From Stackebrandtia endophytica (lineage in GTDB: Bacteria > Actinomycetota > Actinomycetes > Mycobacteriales > Micromonosporaceae): a DNA stretch of 64,000 nucleotides. The translations under genes and the position numbers were made by a program. Of the stretch, positions 43,740 to 57,715 are shown one piece after another. The notes under the pieces were generated by a model that saw nothing but the letters and a program-made list of their open reading frames with translations, was not told where the DNA came from and made no database searches. The stretch lies in assembly GCF_006716355.1 (NCBI RefSeq), contig NZ_VFOW01000001.1:930001-994000 (forward strand), read 5' to 3'. Position 1 is the first letter of the stretch. Each line of letters opens with the position of its first letter.

Positions 43740-43883
43740 TGATTTCACCGGAGTCGCGCTACGACCGAAGCATGGGACTGGGCATCGACACCGATCCCGC
43801 CACGCCCCATCGAACCGTTCGAAGGCTCAGTCCGCCACCACCGCAACTGTGTCGAGGCCCTCCACTCCGGCCAGCTTTCTCAT

Positions 43884-45924
43884 GGAACACCTCCACGTGC
43901 GTGGAGAGCAGTGAACGGTGTTGCGCCGTTTATCCGCGCGCCACGGAACACCTCCACGTGCGTGGAGAGCAGTCGTCGTACGGCAGGTCAAGGTCATCGA
44001 GGTACGGAACACCTCCACGTGCGTGGAGAGCAGTCCGCGTCGCTTCTGGAGTCCGGCGACGTGGGCGGAACACCTCCACGTGCGTGGAGAGCAGGGGTAC
44101 TCCGACTCCGAGGTGCTCAAGGAACGCGGAACACCTCCACGTGCGTGGAGAGCAGGATGCCCTGAGGGGGTGGTGGTGTGCGGTGGGCGGAACACCTCCA
44201 CGTGCGTGGAGAGCAGAGGGCGATGGTGTTGCCCCGCAGGAGGGTGAACGGAACACCTCCACGTGCGTGGAGAGCAGGGCGTGGCGTGACTATCTCGATA
44301 TGACCGACCCGGAACACCTCCACGTGCGTGGAGAGCAGTCGGGTTGTCCCGGCCATACATCCCGTACCGGCGGAACACCTCCACGTGCGTGGAGAGCAGG
44401 TTGTCGCGGGTGCCGGCTTCGGCGTTGGCGTCGGAACACCTCCACGTGCGTGGAGAGCAGCACGAACCTCACCGAAATGGGAAACAACCCAGCGGAACAC
44501 CTCCACGTGCGTGGAGAGCAGCTGCGGTGAAGCTTCCACCGCAGCTCCGCATGCGGAACACCTCCACGTGCGTGGAGAGCAGGTCGACCAGGCTCTCCCA
44601 CAGACGGTGGTCGCCGGAACACCTCCACGTGCGTGGAGAGCAGATGGCCGATTCAGTGGCCCTCTAAGACGTCTCCGGAACACCTCCACGTGCGTGGAGA
44701 GCAGGACGACGCCGCGACCATCTGCGGTCCCAACTTCGGAACACCTCCACGTGCGTGGAGAGCAGGGTCTCGGCGACCTGATCCAACGGTTCGCCGACGG
44801 AACACCTCCACGTGCGTGGAGAGCAGCTGGTGGTCTCGTCAGAAGAAAGGACTCATATCGGAACACCTCCACGTGCGTGGAGAGCAGCGATCGACCGGCA
44901 ACTGCGCGAGTGGGAGTTATGGAACACCTCCACGTGCGTGGAGAGCAGTACCTACGCCCCCAACAATCCAGTCACCCACGCGGAACACCTCCACGTGCGT
45001 GGAGAGCAGATGTGGGCGACTGGATCACGATCACCGAGCAACGGAACACCTCCACGTGCGTGGAGAGCAGTGCTTGCGGTACCAGTTGACCGCGTTACGG
45101 CGCGGAACACCTCCACGTGCGTGGAGAGCAGGGGGTGGCGTTCCTGGGCGGCGACTATCTCCTCGGAACACCTCCACGTGCGTGGAGAGCAGTGTCCTCG
45201 TGATCGCCACCCGGGTGGTGCCGCCGGAACACCTCCACGTGCGTGGAGAGCAGGATGACGTGGGCGAGCTTCGCACGCAACACGGCGGAACACCTCCACG
45301 TGCGTGGAGAGCAGCACGCTCCGCCGGCATATCGGAGGACACCCTGCGGAACACCTCCACGTGCGTGGAGAGCAGCCGGCCGTGCCGGGCCACCACTCGG
45401 GGTGCCACGGAACACCTCCACGTGCGTGGAGAGCAGCCGCCGACGATACTCGGCGCAGAAGTGCCGGCCGGAACACCTCCACGTGCGTGGAGAGCAGACC
45501 GTCATGAGTTGGCGCAGCGGTACAGCCAGCGGAACACCTCCACGTGCGTGGAGAGCAGGCGTGGGGTGCCGGCCTGGGCCTCACGGTGGGCGGAACACCT
45601 CCACGTGCGTGGAGAGCAGGATGTCCGTAACCACTGGACCAACGACGCGTGCGGAACACCTCCACGTGCGTGGAGAGCAGTCGACCATCGCCGCAGTCTG
45701 GACCGGGATCGTCGGAACACCTCCACGTGCGTGGAGAGCAGGCGCGGCCATTCCCAGTCGTAGTCGTGCAGTTCGGAACACCTCCACGTGCGTGGAGAGC
45801 AGTGCATTTTCACGTCCAATGTGATGCCGAAAGACGGAACACCTCCACGTGCGTGGAGAGCAGGCCCACCTCTTACTCCACAGGAGACCACATGTCGGAA
45901 CACCTCCACGTGCGTGGAGAGCAG
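43884..45924 (-). CRISPR. type I-E CRISPR array 1: 34 repeats, 33 spacers
   Basis: Repeats recur at an exact 61-base period from 43884 to 45897. In crRNA orientation (minus strand) the repeat begins CTGCTCTCC, has the palindromic core CCACGCACGTGG and ends GTGTTCCG (29 nt with 32-nt spacers). The last G is T-derived (A) in the outermost repeat at 43884 and at one internal unit near 44921, otherwise the repeats are identical. The leader is at the right end beside cas2, so new spacers are added there and the left end is oldest. No spacer visibly matches the window. Confidence 0.97.
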
Positions 45925-45999
45925 GCTTCGCGAACTGGGATTTTATTCGAGCGTTTTACCGTTTTCGGCTCGAAATGCGATCAGCTGGAGTCCGTCACA
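45925..45999 (-). promoter_or_regulatory. array 1 leader, overlapping cas2 3' end
   Basis: Only 18 bases separate the cas2 stop from the first leader-proximal repeat, so the leader lies largely inside the cas2 coding end. A 45-nt block beginning GCCGAAAACGGTAAAACG is identical to the sequence preceding array 2, which supports it as the functional leader (Cas1-Cas2 recognition and/or promoter). Confidence 0.7.
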
Positions 46000-46251
46000 G
46001 TCGATGACTTCTCGACGTCGATAGCCAGCGGTGTGGATGATGAACCGCTGTTCGAAGTCGGCGTGAGGGTAGACGATGGTGGCCGCCCCGTCGCCGACTG
46101 ACCCGGCTACGGCTTGCCACAGTTCGTCTCGGACGCGGGCTGACAAGGTCCCTACGTACATTCCTGGGGTCGGTTCGATCATCCAACGAGTGAGGGCACC
46201 GCGGACGTGATCAGGCACAGCGGTGGTGTTGATGACAACGAGTTTGGGCAT
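45943..46251 (-). CDS. cas2: Cas2e, CRISPR adaptation nuclease, 102 aa
   Basis: KLVVINTTAVPDHVRGALTR is the type I-E Cas2 opening and the length is typical. With Cas1 it forms the integrase complex that inserts new spacers at the leader. It starts five bases after the cas1 stop. The C terminus (CDGLQLIAFRAENGKTLE) is encoded within the array leader. All residues appear intact. Confidence 0.9.
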   Translation of the reverse strand: MPKLVVINTTAVPDHVRGALTRWMIEPTPGMYVGTLSARVRDELWQAVAGSVGDGAATIVYPHADFEQRFIIHTAGYRRREVIDCDGLQLIAFRAENGKTLE

Positions 46252-46255
46252 TGGT

Positions 46256-47218
46256 TCACCAGTCCGGGTCTATGTCGCCGTGGTTGACTCCGGCTGATAC
46301 TTCTCCGACATCAGGGTCCCAGAGGTGCACTAGCTCAGGGTTGACGAGCTCTTCTTTCTGGACTTCGCTAGGTGCGAGCAACCATTGAAGGTCGTGGACG
46401 ATTTGAGGCAGCAGTCGGTAAATCCTGAAGTCATCTCGGAGTCTTCGCCTGGCTTCTGCTTCCGGGTTGCTGGATTTATGCAGGGAGAACGCGAGCGGAA
46501 TGGTGTATTTCGCTTTGTAGAGATCACCGATGTCGTATACGAAGGAGTGCTGTTTGCCACTGTGGATGAATCCAAGAGCTGGTGAGCAACCGAGCGCGAG
46601 GATCGCCGCATGGCACACGCCATACAGGGCGTGATTTGCTGCTGACAGTGCTTGGTTGACGTTGCTTTGTTCGTCCCAGTTGTGGGGATCGTAGTTGCGT
46701 TTGAACCCTCGAATACGGTGTTGGTCGGCCAATGTCCGATAGAGGGTTTTCATCCGTTGGCCTTCTAGCCCGCGAAGTACGTTCATCGCGGTGTCGGATT
46801 CGACGTGCTCACCGAATCGCAGGGTGAACATCGCTTGAGCCACTGTCAGTCTCGTGGCGTCGTTGGCCCATGCTCGGGCTTGTTTTTCAAGCCATGTTGT
46901 AGTTAGTGCGCTTGGCAAACCGGCGTTGTACATGCGTACCGCGCCGGCTCCGGCCCACACGACGGTGGTGTTGTGTCTTCCCAATGTCGCCATTGCGGGT
47001 TGGGTTATCGATGTTCCAGTCCCCAAGAGCAGGCATGACAGGCTGGCGATGGGGAGGTAGACGCGGTCGATCTGTCCGTTTCGCTCGACTTGGGCGCAAA
47101 CTCCGGTGTCGTCTTGGACGACGCGAACGGTCTCCAGGTATAGGAACGACAGGCTGTCGCCGATTCGCGGCAGCATCGCCAAGGCTGGTGCACCGAGCTT
47201 CTTGCGGGGGTCAGTCAT
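46256..47218 (-). CDS. cas1: Cas1e, CRISPR integrase, 320 aa
   Basis: The ATG at 47218 (MTDPRKKLG) overlaps the cas6e stop by eight bases and is chosen over 47365. The catalytic residues of type I-E Cas1 are visible: Glu in LRGLEGQRMK (about residue 140), His in GFIHSGKQHS (about 215) and Asp in FVYDIGDLYK (about 225). It catalyses spacer integration with Cas2. Length is standard for Cas1e. Confidence 0.92.
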   Translation of the reverse strand: MTDPRKKLGAPALAMLPRIGDSLSFLYLETVRVVQDDTGVCAQVERNGQIDRVYLPIASLSCLLLGTGTSITQPAMATLGRHNTTVVWAGAGAVRMYNAGLPSALTTTWLEKQARAWANDATRLTVAQAMFTLRFGEHVESDTAMNVLRGLEGQRMKTLYRTLADQHRIRGFKRNYDPHNWDEQSNVNQALSAANHALYGVCHAAILALGCSPALGFIHSGKQHSFVYDIGDLYKAKYTIPLAFSLHKSSNPEAEARRRLRDDFRIYRLLPQIVHDLQWLLAPSEVQKEELVNPELVHLWDPDVGEVSAGVNHGDIDPDW

Positions 47219-47852
47219 CAGTGAGTCCCTTGATGAGCGCGAGGCTGAGCAGGCCGCAGCCGTAGCTTCGCGCTCGACCGATTCCAGTGAGGATGGCGTC
47301 ACGGACAGCGGCGGCGTCGCGCACCGTAGCGGTTCCATCGAATTGGGCCATCGCGTGTCGTCCACGTTTGACGGTCACGTCGGGCAATGGTCTCCATTGG
47401 GTGGAGTTTATGTCGAGGCCGTGGCCGTCCGCCCGGTCGATCCACCACTGCTGGGCGCTGTCTCCTCGAAGGACGCGCAACTTCCCCTGCTGTTCTGGGG
47501 CGGCTGAGTTACCCCAGCGTTTGGTGGGGTTGGCGACTATTCGGTATTTGACAAGCCTGCCCGGATGCAGTGCCCCGATGATCGGACCAATTTGTCGAGT
47601 CTGGACAGCCATCAAACTGGATGACGGCAGGCGTTCGGTTCGAGGCTCCTGGGCGGTCTGGACCAGCATGGTGGTGGTGGCGTCGATGTTTTCTATTCGA
47701 TAGAGCAGCCCAGCCGTGCGCCTAGGGTGTTCTCCTAGATCATCGTCAACGAGTCTCATAAGGTAACGGTGCTGTGCTTGCCCATCGGTGAGCATTCGGC
47801 GAATGTCACGATGGTGCGTGGCCACAGTGATCCGAGTAAGCCAGCCCGTCAT
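47211..47852 (-). CDS. cas6e: Cas6e crRNA endoribonuclease, 213 aa
   Basis: N-terminal ferredoxin-like fold with the probable catalytic His in DGQAQHRYLMRL (about residue 28) and the C-terminal glycine-rich loop GIGRARSYGCGLLSLA. It cuts the repeat hairpin to release crRNA and stays bound to its 3' end. Starts in an ATGA overlap with cas5e. Confidence 0.9.
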   Translation of the reverse strand: MTGWLTRITVATHHRDIRRMLTDGQAQHRYLMRLVDDDLGEHPRRTAGLLYRIENIDATTTMLVQTAQEPRTERLPSSSLMAVQTRQIGPIIGALHPGRLVKYRIVANPTKRWGNSAAPEQQGKLRVLRGDSAQQWWIDRADGHGLDINSTQWRPLPDVTVKRGRHAMAQFDGTATVRDAAAVRDAILTGIGRARSYGCGLLSLALIKGLTDD

Positions 47853-51930: not shown

Positions 51931-54735
51931 TCACCGCAACAGGCCCAGCTTCGCATCCAGCCTGAAGTTGTTGCCTCGCATACGAACGGGCTGAGGATCA
52001 CCATCGGCGTTGAAGTCGAAGATCAACGGAATCACCCTCTTGAGCAGGTGGTTTTTCGACCAGCCGTCGGGCTGTGCGGCCAGGCCAGCTTCATGATCCA
52101 CATAGCTGGTCCGCAAAGGAATCGTGTGTTCGATGATCGACGCGAGCTCCGACCTGAGCCAAATGGGATCAGTTCCTCGCCACCTCGGCGCCGGCACAGG
52201 CTTCTCGCACTCTTCGTCGAAGTAGAGGTTGCCGTCGCGCCGAAAACAAGGCAACACCCGCACTGAGTCGGCGTTGAACCGAGTCGACACCATCTCGTCG
52301 TCAATGACGTTGGCACCTTTAGACAACAGTTGTACCGCCGAAACGTGCCCCGGTCTCGGAATGCTCTTTCGGATCGCCTCAGCTGCTGCCACCAACTCAT
52401 ATGCCTTGCTGGTGACCTCCGCGTTCTCATGTCCGGCAATGAGGGACGGATCCGTGTGAACAGTGTCAACTAGATCTTGGACTTCCCCGGGAACTTGAAC
52501 CGGTAGACCTCCGAGTCCGGTGATCAACCGATGCGTGCGAATCATGGCCGCTTCGGGATACACATATATCCAGCCACCAGGAAGCGCCAGTTCGTCACCC
52601 TGCTGGGGTGTGAGGACGACGAGCCGATGACCCTTCACCCACTTGGGACGATAGGCATCGTTTTCCGGATGCCGGCATCCCCGACCGGCGCGTTGAAACA
52701 ACAGCTCCAGTGGCGCCAGATCGGTGACCATGAGGTCCATGTCGATGTCGACTGATTGCTCAATGACCTGAGTGCTGACGATAATGGTCCGCCCACCCCG
52801 GTCACCCTTTTTGCCGAAGCGTCTCACGATATCGCTGGTGATCTCATCTCGCCGGTGTAGCGGCATCCGGGCGTGCAACAGGATCAACTCAGCATCAGAT
52901 CCTTGCTCCGCCAACCATGTTTTCAGGCCGAGATAGGTTTGCTGGGCCTCATCCACAGTGGTACAGATAACGGCGGCACTGCCACGAGAGTCCAACAAAG
53001 GAGCCAAGTGAGTCTTCAAAGCTGCCATACGCTGCATGCCAGAGTCGGAGACTCCACATGGGTGCACCTCGATGAACAGTTCCCGTTGCTGCTCCGACGC
53101 AACCTCAATGGCCTCGGACGTCGATTTCTGCGACTCCAAGTCGACGTAGCGCCACCCCGGATACTTCAACGCCGCGGAGATATCGCCGACTGCACCGACG
53201 GGCTGTCCTAGATAGGCAGCCGTCAACCGGCTAGCGGTTCGTTGCGGAAGGGTTGCCGACATCAGGATGACAGGCACCCGCAGGTGTCCGCACCAGGCCA
53301 GGAATGTCGACAACAACTGTTCCACGTATTCATCGAAAGCGTGGACCTCATCGATGATGATCGTCTTGTTGGCGAACGCAAGCATCCGGAATGCGTTGTG
53401 GCGGATCGGAAGTACCGATAGAAGCGCCTGGTCGATCGTACCGACACTGACCGGCGCGAAGGCCGCCTTCTTACCTCCACTGAGCCACTCGGTGACGACC
53501 GTGAGCATGTCCTTAGCTTGCGATGCAACCGAGTCGCCCTGCTCCAGTTCGTTCTTCAACCGGCGAAGCCAAGCCATACTGTGCAGCAGATTCAGCGGTG
53601 TCGGGTTCGCCACCCGTTCCTTCAAGAAGGAGGCGAGCCGCGGTTCCATCTCATTGGACGTCGCCATCGTCGGCAACAGAAAACTCAATCCAGCTGAACC
53701 AGCCGCCTCCGACATGATCCCTGCCGCGAACAACGCTGCCTCGGTCTTACCTTGACCCGTCTGCTCAGCCATAATCAGCAACCCCGGTCCGGTAACCAGA
53801 GCAGGTAGCCCGGATTCGAGACTGCGCTGCAGCCGATTAGGTTCAAACCCGAACTGGTCTACGAATGTGCCGGGCTTGAGTTGCAATCGGGTCAAACCTG
53901 CCTGCTGCAGCTCCGCAGAAGCACGGTCACCACTGCCATCGAAGAACCTCTTCAACTGCTCGACACGGCCCATCTCAGGAACATCGGGCAAACGCAGCTT
54001 GACATACTCGGTTCGGCTGGCCAACCAATCAGCCAGGACCACGATGGCACACACGATGACCTGTGCCTCATGAGTAATCTCTCGCGGCCAGTGGTCGAAA
54101 CCCAATACCGCACGCATGGCTTCGAGATGAGCCAATCGTTGCCGCCCCCAGGCACCGATGCCTAGACCATGCGCCTTCATCTTGTCGGCTTTGAAGTCTT
54201 TGGGGTCCGCGGTGGTAAAAACTCCGTGATGCCCACCGACAATCTCGCCGACCCTCACGGACAGATGTCGTGGAATGCCGAGCTTGTGCTGCAACGCCGC
54301 ACCAATCCACAAGTGACCAGCACGCGCATGGTCTGTGCAATCGCCTTCCTGTGGATACCCGTTCGGCATCGCCACCTTCCGTTGGAATCCTGGACTGGCC
54401 TTCCCAACATCATGAACCCCAGCCATAAACATCACGAAACAGCGAGATTCCTGTGCGGACAGTCCCAGTTCCTTCGAAAGCCAACCACGCAATCCCAGCG
54501 ACAGATAGTCATCCCATACCGCTCCGGCCAAGGCCGCCGTGTCCAGCAAGTGACAAACCAACGGGTACTTTACGAGCGATCCGTCGTGCTCCTCCAAGCC
54601 ACGAGACTTACCCCATAGCACCAGATCCGGTCCACCATCAGGCAACTCCCCGACCCAGAATTCACCACACACCGTCGACACCCTCCAATACGATTGACCT
54701 ACCCGATAGATACCACGTATGTGTTCGAGGTTCAT
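51931..54735 (-). CDS. cas3: Cas3, HD nuclease-helicase, 934 aa
   Basis: N-terminal HD nuclease: His in PLVCHLLDTAALAG, HD in MAGVHDVGKASPGF, and HH in VGGHHGVFTT. Superfamily 2 helicase follows with Walker A EQTGQGKTEAALF (about residue 328), DEVHAFDEY (about 463), LMSATLPQRTAS, and motif VI QRAGRGCRH. It shreds DNA marked by Cascade. First gene of the operon; start codon assumed at 54735 without a strong ribosome site. All catalytic motifs present. Confidence 0.93.
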   Translation of the reverse strand: MNLEHIRGIYRVGQSYWRVSTVCGEFWVGELPDGGPDLVLWGKSRGLEEHDGSLVKYPLVCHLLDTAALAGAVWDDYLSLGLRGWLSKELGLSAQESRCFVMFMAGVHDVGKASPGFQRKVAMPNGYPQEGDCTDHARAGHLWIGAALQHKLGIPRHLSVRVGEIVGGHHGVFTTADPKDFKADKMKAHGLGIGAWGRQRLAHLEAMRAVLGFDHWPREITHEAQVIVCAIVVLADWLASRTEYVKLRLPDVPEMGRVEQLKRFFDGSGDRASAELQQAGLTRLQLKPGTFVDQFGFEPNRLQRSLESGLPALVTGPGLLIMAEQTGQGKTEAALFAAGIMSEAAGSAGLSFLLPTMATSNEMEPRLASFLKERVANPTPLNLLHSMAWLRRLKNELEQGDSVASQAKDMLTVVTEWLSGGKKAAFAPVSVGTIDQALLSVLPIRHNAFRMLAFANKTIIIDEVHAFDEYVEQLLSTFLAWCGHLRVPVILMSATLPQRTASRLTAAYLGQPVGAVGDISAALKYPGWRYVDLESQKSTSEAIEVASEQQRELFIEVHPCGVSDSGMQRMAALKTHLAPLLDSRGSAAVICTTVDEAQQTYLGLKTWLAEQGSDAELILLHARMPLHRRDEITSDIVRRFGKKGDRGGRTIIVSTQVIEQSVDIDMDLMVTDLAPLELLFQRAGRGCRHPENDAYRPKWVKGHRLVVLTPQQGDELALPGGWIYVYPEAAMIRTHRLITGLGGLPVQVPGEVQDLVDTVHTDPSLIAGHENAEVTSKAYELVAAAEAIRKSIPRPGHVSAVQLLSKGANVIDDEMVSTRFNADSVRVLPCFRRDGNLYFDEECEKPVPAPRWRGTDPIWLRSELASIIEHTIPLRTSYVDHEAGLAAQPDGWSKNHLLKRVIPLIFDFNADGDPQPVRMRGNNFRLDAKLGLLR

Positions 54736-55093
54736 TTGAGGGCATTGAGTTCCCTGGATTGGGGGAGCGGTGACGATCAGCTTCTCTTTCGCGAAAAGCG
54801 ACCATCATGGAGCATCGGGGAAGCTGTGCTCAGGATTCCACTTGATAGTGTGACGCTGATCAACGAACGTATGCGACAAACCCGTGGAGGGGTCCGACAA
54901 TCGCACCATGTACACCCGCAATTGCGTTGGAGATGTCCTGCCCCACCTTCGCCTGATCAAAATGCACGAGGCAACTGTCATCACGGTCCCCTCCTCCCCG
55001 GAAGATCTCCCCACGACATGGACTCCTGCGGGTGACTGTCACGCAAGTCCCGAGAACCACAGACCCGATGCTCGACGCCGAGAGCTAACCCCC
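54736..55093. other. cas operon upstream region
   Basis: Contains the promoter region of the minus-strand cas operon. A plus-strand frame from 54884 lacks a start context; its last 27 codons (from about 55070) are the degenerate cas2 end described separately. The rest has no recognised gene. Confidence 0.5.
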
Positions 55094-55168
55094 TGTGACG
55101 GACTCCAACTTGTCGCGTTCCAGGCCGAAAACGGTAAAACGCTCGAATAAAATCCCAGTTCGCGAAGC
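55070..55168 (+). promoter_or_regulatory. array 2 leader, a degenerate second copy of the cas2 3' end
   Basis: Translated, 55070-55150 ends ARRRELTPCDGLQLVAFQ then AENGKTLE and a stop, nearly the C terminus of Cas2e (RRREVIDCDGLQLIAFR then AENGKTLE). At DNA level the last 45 bases before the first repeat are identical to the array 1 leader and the 30 before them are ~75 percent identical. The stop codon and 18-base gap to the repeat are preserved. No other part of cas2 is recognisable here. Confidence 0.75.
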
Positions 55169-56783
55169 CTGCTCTCCACGCACGTGGAGGTGTTCCGCCG
55201 CTGTGAAACCCCGCAACGAATGGGAACAACTGCTCTCCACGCACGTGGAGGTGTTCCGATTTTGTCGATGAAGTACCCGTTCCAGACGTCCTGCTCTCCA
55301 CGCACGTGGAGGTGTTCCGTCGTCGGCGACTTTGGCGATGCTTCGTTCACCCTGCTCTCCACGCACGTGGAGGTGTTCCGCCTTGATCCGGTCCCGCGCT
55401 TCACCATTGGGACTGCTCTCCACGCACGTGGAGGTGTTCCGTGCCAAATGGTGGCACCCAGGCCCACGTCAGCCTGCTCTCCACGCACGTGGAGGTGTTC
55501 CGGTGCGGATCGGGGGCGTGTCCGTCGACGGGGCCTGCTCTCCACGCACGTGGAGGTGTTCCGGTCTGTGACACCGTCCCAGACCATCGGTGGGACTGCT
55601 CTCCACGCACGTGGAGGTGTTCCGTTGCTCGCCGAGCGGGCCGATCGATCGCTGAACTGCTCTCCACGCACGTGGAGGTGTTCCGCAACAGGCCCAGGCT
55701 GACCAGGACCACCGGGCCTGCTCTCCACGCACGTGGAGGTGTTCCGAACACAACCAAGGGAGTCGCCACTATGGCCACCTGCTCTCCACGCACGTGGAGG
55801 TGTTCCGGAATCACCGAATGCACCTCCCAGGTGTAATACCTGCTCTCCACGCACGTGGAGGTGTTCCGTCATCGAGCAGCTGGCGACCCTACCGCCGGGC
55901 CTGCTCTCCACGCACGTGGAGGTGTTCCGGGAGTTGGATAGCGGACTGACTGAGGCCTGCGCTGCTCTCCACGCACGTGGAGGTGTTCCGCGCCAGCCTC
56001 GGCCAGCAGCTCCAGGAGTACGCTGCTCTCCACGCACGTGGAGGTGTTCCGGCGTCGTCCGGCCACTCGTCCTCCTCAATCCGCTGCTCTCCACGCACGT
56101 GGAGGTGTTCCGCAGTACGAGCAGTTGCGCGCCAAGGCGAAAGCCTGCTCTCCACGCACGTGGAGGTGTTCCGTTCCTCCTGGGCAAACTGGGCGAAAAC
56201 GCGAACTGCTCTCCACGCACGTGGAGGTGTTCCGACCGTGCGGACCATCTCCACGTTCCCCGCGTCCTGCTCTCCACGCACGTGGAGGTGTTCCGTGCGC
56301 CAACGACGCGTTAAACCGGCACGATCCCTGCTCTCCACGCACGTGGAGGTGTTCCGGTCGAGCCGTGGTGGGCGGCTCCGCTACCCGACTGCTCTCCACG
56401 CACGTGGAGGTGTTCCGGCGCGCGGCCTCGGTGGCGGCGTCGTCGTGATCTGCTCTCCACGCACGTGGAGGTGTTCCGAAAAGGGGGGCCGGTCCGCCAG
56501 GGGTGCGGACCTGCTCTCCACGCACGTGGAGGTGTTCTGCCGGCGATCTCGACATCCGCAGCATCACCGGGCTGCTCTCCACGTACGTGGAGGTGTTCCG
56601 GTGAGTAGTGAGCACCTCGTGCGAGATGTGCGCTGCTCTCCGCGCACGTGGAGGTGTTCCGGCCGGGACGGCAAAACCGCGTCACCGTCGACGCTGCTCT
56701 CCACGCACGTGGAAGTGTTCCGACCGGAGATGCTGCACCGATTCCGGGGCCGGTCTGCTCTCCACGCACGTGGATCGGAGTGT
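55169..56783 (+). CRISPR. type I-E CRISPR array 2: 27 repeats, 26 spacers
   Basis: Same 29-nt repeat as array 1, in crRNA orientation on the plus strand, at an exact 61-base period from 55169 to 56755. Repeats are identical for the first ~22 units; the last five degenerate (TTCTG end at 56535, CCACGTACGTGG, CCGCGCACGTGG, GGAAGTG, and a last copy broken by an insertion near 56774). Decay at the right end and a leader at the left end set the direction. It diverges from array 1 across the cas operon. Confidence 0.97.
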
Positions 56784-57055: not shown

Positions 57056-57715
57056 CTAACACCACTTAGCACTGTCTTCAAGGGACTCATAACCCGTCGG
57101 TCGCCGGTTCGAGCCCGGCCCGCCCCACCACGGTTGACCTGGGGTTTCACCTATTACAGGTTCGGGATTGTTGTCGGTTTTGTCCTCAGGTGTTCGCATG
57201 GTGTACGCATGCGCGTGCATATAGTTTTGTTTAATGTTTCCTCTGGGCACTATGGACGCTGTTTTGTTGGCGGCGGCGCGTGCCAGTTCGGGGTAGACGT
57301 GCTGGTACGTGTCCCGGGTGAACGCCGCCGTGGCGTGTCCGCATTCTTCTTTGACGATGGTGATGTCGGTTCCGGCGGCGAGCATGAGACTGGCGGCGCC
57401 GTGTCGGGTGTCGTGGAGGCGGATCGGTGGCAGCGGCATGGCGAGGGCGATGTTGATGGCGCGTTCGGTGACCTTGTGAGCCTTCATGATCCGTTCCATG
57501 CTCCAGTTGTCGTCGAGGAACCGTTTCCGGATCGCGGCATGCCGCGCCAGGAAGCGTTCGAACTTCTGCGAAATCCACCCCGGATCCAGGACCGCCCCCG
57601 CCGGGTCAGTAAACAACCTGCCCGATCCGCCCCAGGCATCACCCAGTTCAAGGTGCCGTTTCTGTTTGTAGTGCAGTGTTTCGAGCGCGCGGCGCGTTCT
57701 CGTTAGGCTGGGTCG
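57056..57715 (-). pseudogene. tyrosine integrase C-terminal fragment, 5'-truncated
   Basis: The frame from ~57715 reads TRTRRALETLHYKQKRHLEL, then FTDPAGAVLDPGWISQKFER, IRLHDTRHGAASLMLAAGTD, CGHATAAFTRDTYQHVYP: box II H-x-x-R, the following His and the nucleophile Tyr are present, but the first catalytic Arg and the N-terminal ~200 residues are missing beyond 57715, where a plus-strand gene starts. The C terminus WWGGPGSNRRPTGYES is encoded by the reverse of the tRNA 3' half, the typical att overlap of actinobacterial integrative elements. Not functional as it stands. Confidence 0.7.
57082..57130 (+). other. tRNA 3' half (CAT anticodon), att-site remnant
   Basis: GGGACTCATAACCC is an anticodon stem-loop with CAT, followed by the T-arm CGCCGGTTCGAGCCCGGCC-like sequence and CGCCCCACCA. 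It is the 3' half of a tRNA with CAT anticodon. No D-arm or 5' acceptor half precedes it, so it is not a functional tRNA; it is the core of an attachment site. The integrase stop lies just beyond. Confidence 0.75.

Follow-up and report, generated by a model that had tools for sequence, protein, structure and literature searches.

Judged from sequence, one stretch of DNA is both CRISPR leader and 3' end of cas2 in Stackebrandtia endophytica, and the arrangement is widespread, recurring in many actinobacterial relatives. We consider it quite probable that the locus is a paired-array type I-E system whose leader lies partly inside cas2, and that the leader of its second array has been overwritten by approximately 100 bp from a cas2 end. 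Since the cas2 end doubles as leader, a leader copy ahead of a second array resembles a broken piece of cas2. In type I-E systems Cas1-Cas2 inserts new spacers at the leader end of the array.

The window, meaning the whole 64-kb stretch of S. endophytica DNA that was analysed, contains a full type I-E operon, encoded on the minus strand with cas3 first and cas2 last, and flanked by array 1 and array 2. All eight genes (cas3, cse1, cse2, cas7, cas5, cas6e, cas1e and cas2e) match their own NCBIfam models, with the core and HD domain models of cas3 scoring above cut-off. By these profile models cas3 occupies 51931-54735 on the minus strand, divergent from array 2, and cas1e occupies 46256-47365 on the same strand (TIGR03638, 337.7 bits). 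The 102-residue cas2e follows at 45943-46251, also on the minus strand (TIGR01873, 60.9 bits against a cut-off of 33.15). Array 1 (43883-45924, minus strand) has 34 repeats and array 2 (55169-56722, plus strand) has 26; the repeats are palindromic and 29 nt long, and every spacer measures 32 nt. The far end of array 2 is worn, with one mismatch in each of the last four repeats and a 20-nt repeat remnant at 56755-56774. Just past it, on the minus strand, an open reading frame at 57056-57616 looks by eye like the C-terminal portion of a tyrosine recombinase. An imperfect inverted repeat of 26 nt and 73% identity (54810-54835 and 55048-55073) spans the interval from cas3 to the array-2 leader.

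The two leaders were aligned by anchoring them at the first repeats, at 45924 on the minus strand and 55169 on the plus strand, and positions are counted outward from there. From -1 to -45 the leaders do not differ, the first mismatch falling at -46, so that 45925-45969 (minus strand) is identical to 55124-55168 (plus strand). These 45 bases comprise the 3' end of cas2 and the 18-nt gap downstream of its stop codon, a TAA at -21 to -19 (45943-45945); residues 95-102 and the stop therefore lie within the array-1 leader. In both arrays the element directly abuts the first repeat, on the side with unmutated repeats. Further out, differences number 8 of 32 at -46 to -77 and 9 of 23 at -78 to -100, and past about -100 the sequences are unrelated (11 matches in 30 positions at -101 to -130). 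The edge at -45 is sharp (0/45 against 8/32 differences, Fisher p=0.0005), and the score of the ungapped run was equalled in none of 2000 shuffles. With blastn the two 150-nt leaders match over 97 nt at 85.6% identity (E=5e-28), which places a degenerate cas2 coding remnant at 55072-55123 (plus strand), 5' of the array-2 leader proper and reaching -97. The codon table and tblastn agree with this assignment: residues 73-102 of Cas2 are found in frame in the array-2 leader at 70% identity (E=1.6e-12). AENGKTLE followed by a stop closes both copies in the same frame, while the array-2 copy is without V82-I83-D84. Only these two copies of the cas2-end and leader sequence were found in the 5.66-Mb genome.

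Much of this had been anticipated by the initial annotation, which described 45 identical bases next to the repeat, about 30 drifted bases upstream of them, and the last ~27 residues of Cas2e encoded in frame ahead of an array some 9 kb from cas2; the first repeat of array 2 lies 8918 nt from the start of cas2. Its starting point of 55070 is two bases short of 55072, where the blastn match begins, and an identity of 20 bases or less, which it held would speak against a copied leader, is far exceeded. At the 17 positions that differ out to -100, four relatives share the base of the window's cas2 at 10 and that of the array-2 copy at 5, with two ties, which argues that both copies have changed since the copying. 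The idea that the array-2 copy preserves an older cas2 is by the same counts only half borne out. That the 45 nt still agree in full suggests that the leader is under selection, that gene conversion followed, or that both apply.

Whether cas2 ends inside the leader elsewhere was examined in 300 genomes sampled at family level, of which 58 had a Cas2 match, in 394 sampled at class level, of which 65 did, and in 13 named contigs. From 144 loci examined, 123 distinct actinobacterial type I-E loci with an array no more than 320 nt from the cas2 stop were retained; those outside this set were 19 loci lacking an array within 1500 nt, one with a distance of 484 nt (L131) and one duplicate (L057, of L041). 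Repeat starts were shifted by hand in three loci (L043 and L182 by 4 nt, L046 by 1 nt). The distance from the cas2 stop to the first repeat falls into classes: 17-18 nt in 38 loci, 25 nt in 9, 30-50 nt in 21, 51-130 nt in 46 and other values in 9. The window, with its 18 nt, belongs to the first class, which makes up 19/60 loci with an array in the class-level sample, 16/55 in the family-level sample and 3/8 among the named contigs, one of these being a duplicate. On a Cas1 tree, which took in 112 of 116 loci, the 17-18-nt state requires no fewer than 8 changes, of which well-supported branches force 6, and the full set of spacing classes requires 22, so the arrangement has arisen or been lost several times. 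Several genomes (G153, G113, G016, G298 and others) carry at least two Cas2e-like loci of differing kinds, some with different distances from cas2 to the repeat. Leaders have been said to lack an open reading frame (PMC5006608, in the part considered here), whereas positions -45 to -19 of the array-1 leader consist of cas2 codons and their stop. The proposal in the initial annotation that leader function and the coding end of cas2 are one and the same DNA gains support from the 38 loci of 123, from the gene-free motif at array 2 and from the matching stop triplets described below.

The stop codons of cas2 appear mostly to coincide with stop triplets that stand at the same positions in non-coding leaders. 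In 32 non-coding leader-1 and 39 leader-2 sequences, each required to match the core motif, the frequencies of a stop triplet are 0.66 and 0.64, respectively, at -21 and 0.44 and 0.28 at -47, with minor peaks at -43 (0.16 and 0.18) and -28 (0.12 and 0.13). Genes for cas2 end at -21, -47, -43 and -28 in 36, 6, 5 and 9 loci. The coincidence gives p<=0.002 by position permutation in each of four tests, in a set where 8 of the 123 arrays were not classed as forward-oriented. Not every gene fits: stop triplets are rare in non-coding leaders at -42, where four cas2 genes terminate, and at -20, -37 and -57, each the end of two more. We lean towards the view that in actinobacterial type I-E systems the leader sets the end of cas2: the frame would repeatedly invade a fixed element and stop at its built-in triplets, the protein tail would be partly translated leader DNA, and integrase gene and docking site would form one indivisible module able to overwrite the leader of a second array.

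The leader itself is best described as a two-block element positioned relative to the repeat, with a proximal block at -21 to -1 (about TAAAnnCgCAGGTCAnnAAGt; 55148-55168 at array 2) and a distal block at about -50 to -32 (approximately 55124-55137 within the identical part). It precedes both array 1 and the gene-free, divergent array 2 of the same loci. Own pairs of leaders could be compared in 21 of the 38 loci with a gap of 17 or 18 nt, those having both leaders, by a permutation that ignores kinship. Own leader 1 and leader 2 are identical at 0.63 of positions from -45 to -32 against 0.34 when permuted (0/2000; 0.61 with the window removed), at 0.52 against 0.37 from -31 to -22, and at 0.41 against 0.29 from -60 to -46 (1/2000). 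At -80 to -61 the values are 0.34 and 0.29 (22/2000, or 127/2000 once the window is removed). Arrays served by the same Cas1-Cas2 thus have this sequence in common, and as the leaders of one locus are alike where no gene stands, what the arrays share is DNA and not a peptide. Conservation peaks at -13 to -2, right up to the repeat, and TAA occupies -21 to -19 in 14 of 21 array-2 leaders of the 18-nt class. Similarity of leader 1 to leader 2 extends to about -80 in nine loci of the 51-130-nt class, so the length of the element varies and -45 is no universal minimum. The earlier suggestion that the boundary between conserved and drifted bases marks the minimal leader accordingly holds at this locus, where -45 matches the comparative edge, and does not extend to all. 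A nearly invariant AAG stands at -4 to -2 (55165-55167 in the window), one base from the repeat, in relatives too; the same triplet is the PAM reported for the type I-E system of Streptomyces avermitilis in the part of that account considered (PMC4762764). In Glycomyces amatae (L041, of which L057 is the duplicate) the junction of leader and repeat at array 2 carries a 5-nt duplication.

Matches to solved full-length Cas2 chains end at residues 92-96, the exception being a chain of 78 residues, and an AlphaFold2 model of the protein places the last strand at 88-92, with pLDDT 69 at residues 91-100 and 54 at 101-102. AENGKTLE (residues 95-102) corresponds exactly to the codons at -45 to -22 and thus lies outside the Cas2 fold; with the stop at -21, the last eight residues are read from leader DNA. 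Synonymous conservation was compared, by locus group, between codons with their third base in -45 to -31 and the remaining codons. It is higher in that stretch in group B (0.92 vs 0.54) and group F (0.84 vs 0.53), groups C and D point the same way and are not significant alone (p=0.17 and 0.19), and the excess for the four groups pooled is +0.28 (p=0.00005). The largest group (A, 18 loci with a Cas2 ending in ARPRR) has no such excess in -45 to -31 (0.47 vs 0.64), and for this group a general constraint on synonymous sites near the end of cas2 was rejected. No rise in synonymous conservation was seen in a control group in which cas2 stops far from the array.

Array 2 appears to be old and to have been present before the leader was copied. 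Sought as three or more repeat copies differing from the array-1 repeat at 7 positions or fewer, an inverted array 2 is found in 37 of the 97 loci for which 11 kb or more of upstream sequence was available, mostly 8.6-10.1 kb from cas2, and the array-2 leaders of these relatives are of their own diverged type, unlike their leader 1. Among 44 array-2 leaders only that of the window matches its own Cas2 at E<0.01. A weaker case is locus L203, where the 150 nt before array 2 are cas2-like over 64 nt at 81% identity (E=2.7e-14 for nucleotide, 0.08 for protein); its stop triplet is now CAA, and it looks independent of the case in the window. Because array 2 is widespread with leaders of its own while the cas2 remnant is nearly confined to the window, the likely event in this lineage is that about 100 bp of a cas2 end overwrote the leader of an array that was already there. 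The initial annotation had instead proposed that array 2 was born by duplication of a cas2-leader-repeat segment, and the cas2 tails it expected ahead of array 2 in relatives are absent at that threshold from 43 of 44 leaders, L203 being borderline. Such a birth in this lineage, upstream of cas3, could explain some 100 bp of homology with cas2 codons beside the first repeat, and the two arrays have identical repeats and no spacer in common, as copying of a single repeat would leave them; but the same-place arrays of relatives with leaders unlike their own leader 1, the lone Cas2 match and the worn last four repeats make it improbable. Recent gene conversion between the inverted leader-array ends could by itself have produced the 45-nt identity, which would then say nothing about leader length. 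We hold this possible, though on balance doubtful. The other 20 pairs of the 18-nt class differ at several to many sites in the same stretch, so selection alone does not force identity, and inverted arrays supply homology for recombination; against this, the identical block stops at -45, just where leader conservation ends in the comparison across loci and where the conserved Cas2 fold ends too.

Two further readings concern what is conserved. That the Cas2 tail matters as protein, the array-2 copy being a cas2 pseudogene in decay that plays no part as leader, finds some encouragement in the differences at -46 to -61, 5 of 7 of which fall in third codon positions (p=0.045), and in a Cas2 frame legible to about residue 73. 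It is nonetheless highly improbable, as the part free of differences is the very tail that is absent from solved chains and unstructured in the model, the 18 non-coding bases past the stop are identical too, and relatives keep the DNA ahead of array 2 without keeping the tail peptide. The array-2 copy is not the remnant of an otherwise complete gene, its homology ending at about -97, and further matches of at least 9 nt to the cas genes are limited to one of 22 nt (E=0.085) and one of 11 nt. The conserved blocks might alternatively be the array promoter for pre-crRNA and not a docking site for integration. A TAAAnn at -21 to -16 is like a -10 element, and Streptomyces avermitilis transcribes both of its arrays, according to part of the published account (PMC4762764); however, conservation is strongest against the repeat, and a simple scan for one promoter type found no sigma-70-type site at 54730-55200, and we regard this reading as unlikely. 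Part of the element may still act as a promoter.

Under the preferred reading, that of a leader lying partly in cas2 and copied over the leader of array 2, the cas2 frame at array 1 would run into the leader element and end on one of its stop triplets. About 100 bp of cas2 end and leader would then have been copied ahead of the already existing array 2, possibly by way of homologous recombination involving the leader-repeat ends, which lie inverted to each other. The outer part would have drifted on both copies, while the 45-nt leader stayed identical or was made so. Our inference is that Cas1-Cas2, perhaps together with an actinobacterial DNA-bending protein, docks on the two blocks and inserts spacers at the adjoining repeat.

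Such an arrangement would account for the quantised distance between the end of cas2 and the array. It defines the actinobacterial type I-E leader by sequence, as two blocks in a span of about 50 nt, and at array 2 these can be mutated without touching other genes. Leaders may sit hidden in coding sequence, where tools that seek non-coding leaders would miss them, and copying of this kind offers a simple route for arrays to gain or swap leaders.

Among known systems, that of Escherichia coli K-12 resembles the window in that the leader comes directly after cas2 and ahead of the first repeat; however, 105 non-coding nt separate the cas2 stop from that repeat, against 18 nt here. The K-12 leader directs spacer integration with the use of IHF, and actinobacteria are not known to have IHF in its E. 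coli form. Among the literature matches listed, which covered few subscription papers, no description of a leader inside cas2 was found. Closest in layout is Streptomyces avermitilis, whose eight type I-E cas genes lie between two transcribed arrays, the upstream one read in the opposite direction, and in which 69 new spacers of 32 bp were observed (PMC4762764). Its two leaders, judging from a figure legend, resemble each other as those of the window do, although the sections of that account considered here make no mention of a leader overlapping cas2 or of cas2 ending on leader stop triplets (PMC4762764). The leader-anchoring sequences of type II-A systems belong to a different type with a different repeat and, as far as the relevant passages go, seemingly are not embedded in a cas gene. 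Like the element described here, they form a short conserved leader end beside the repeat that is thought to guide integration (PMC5382924, PMC6895254).
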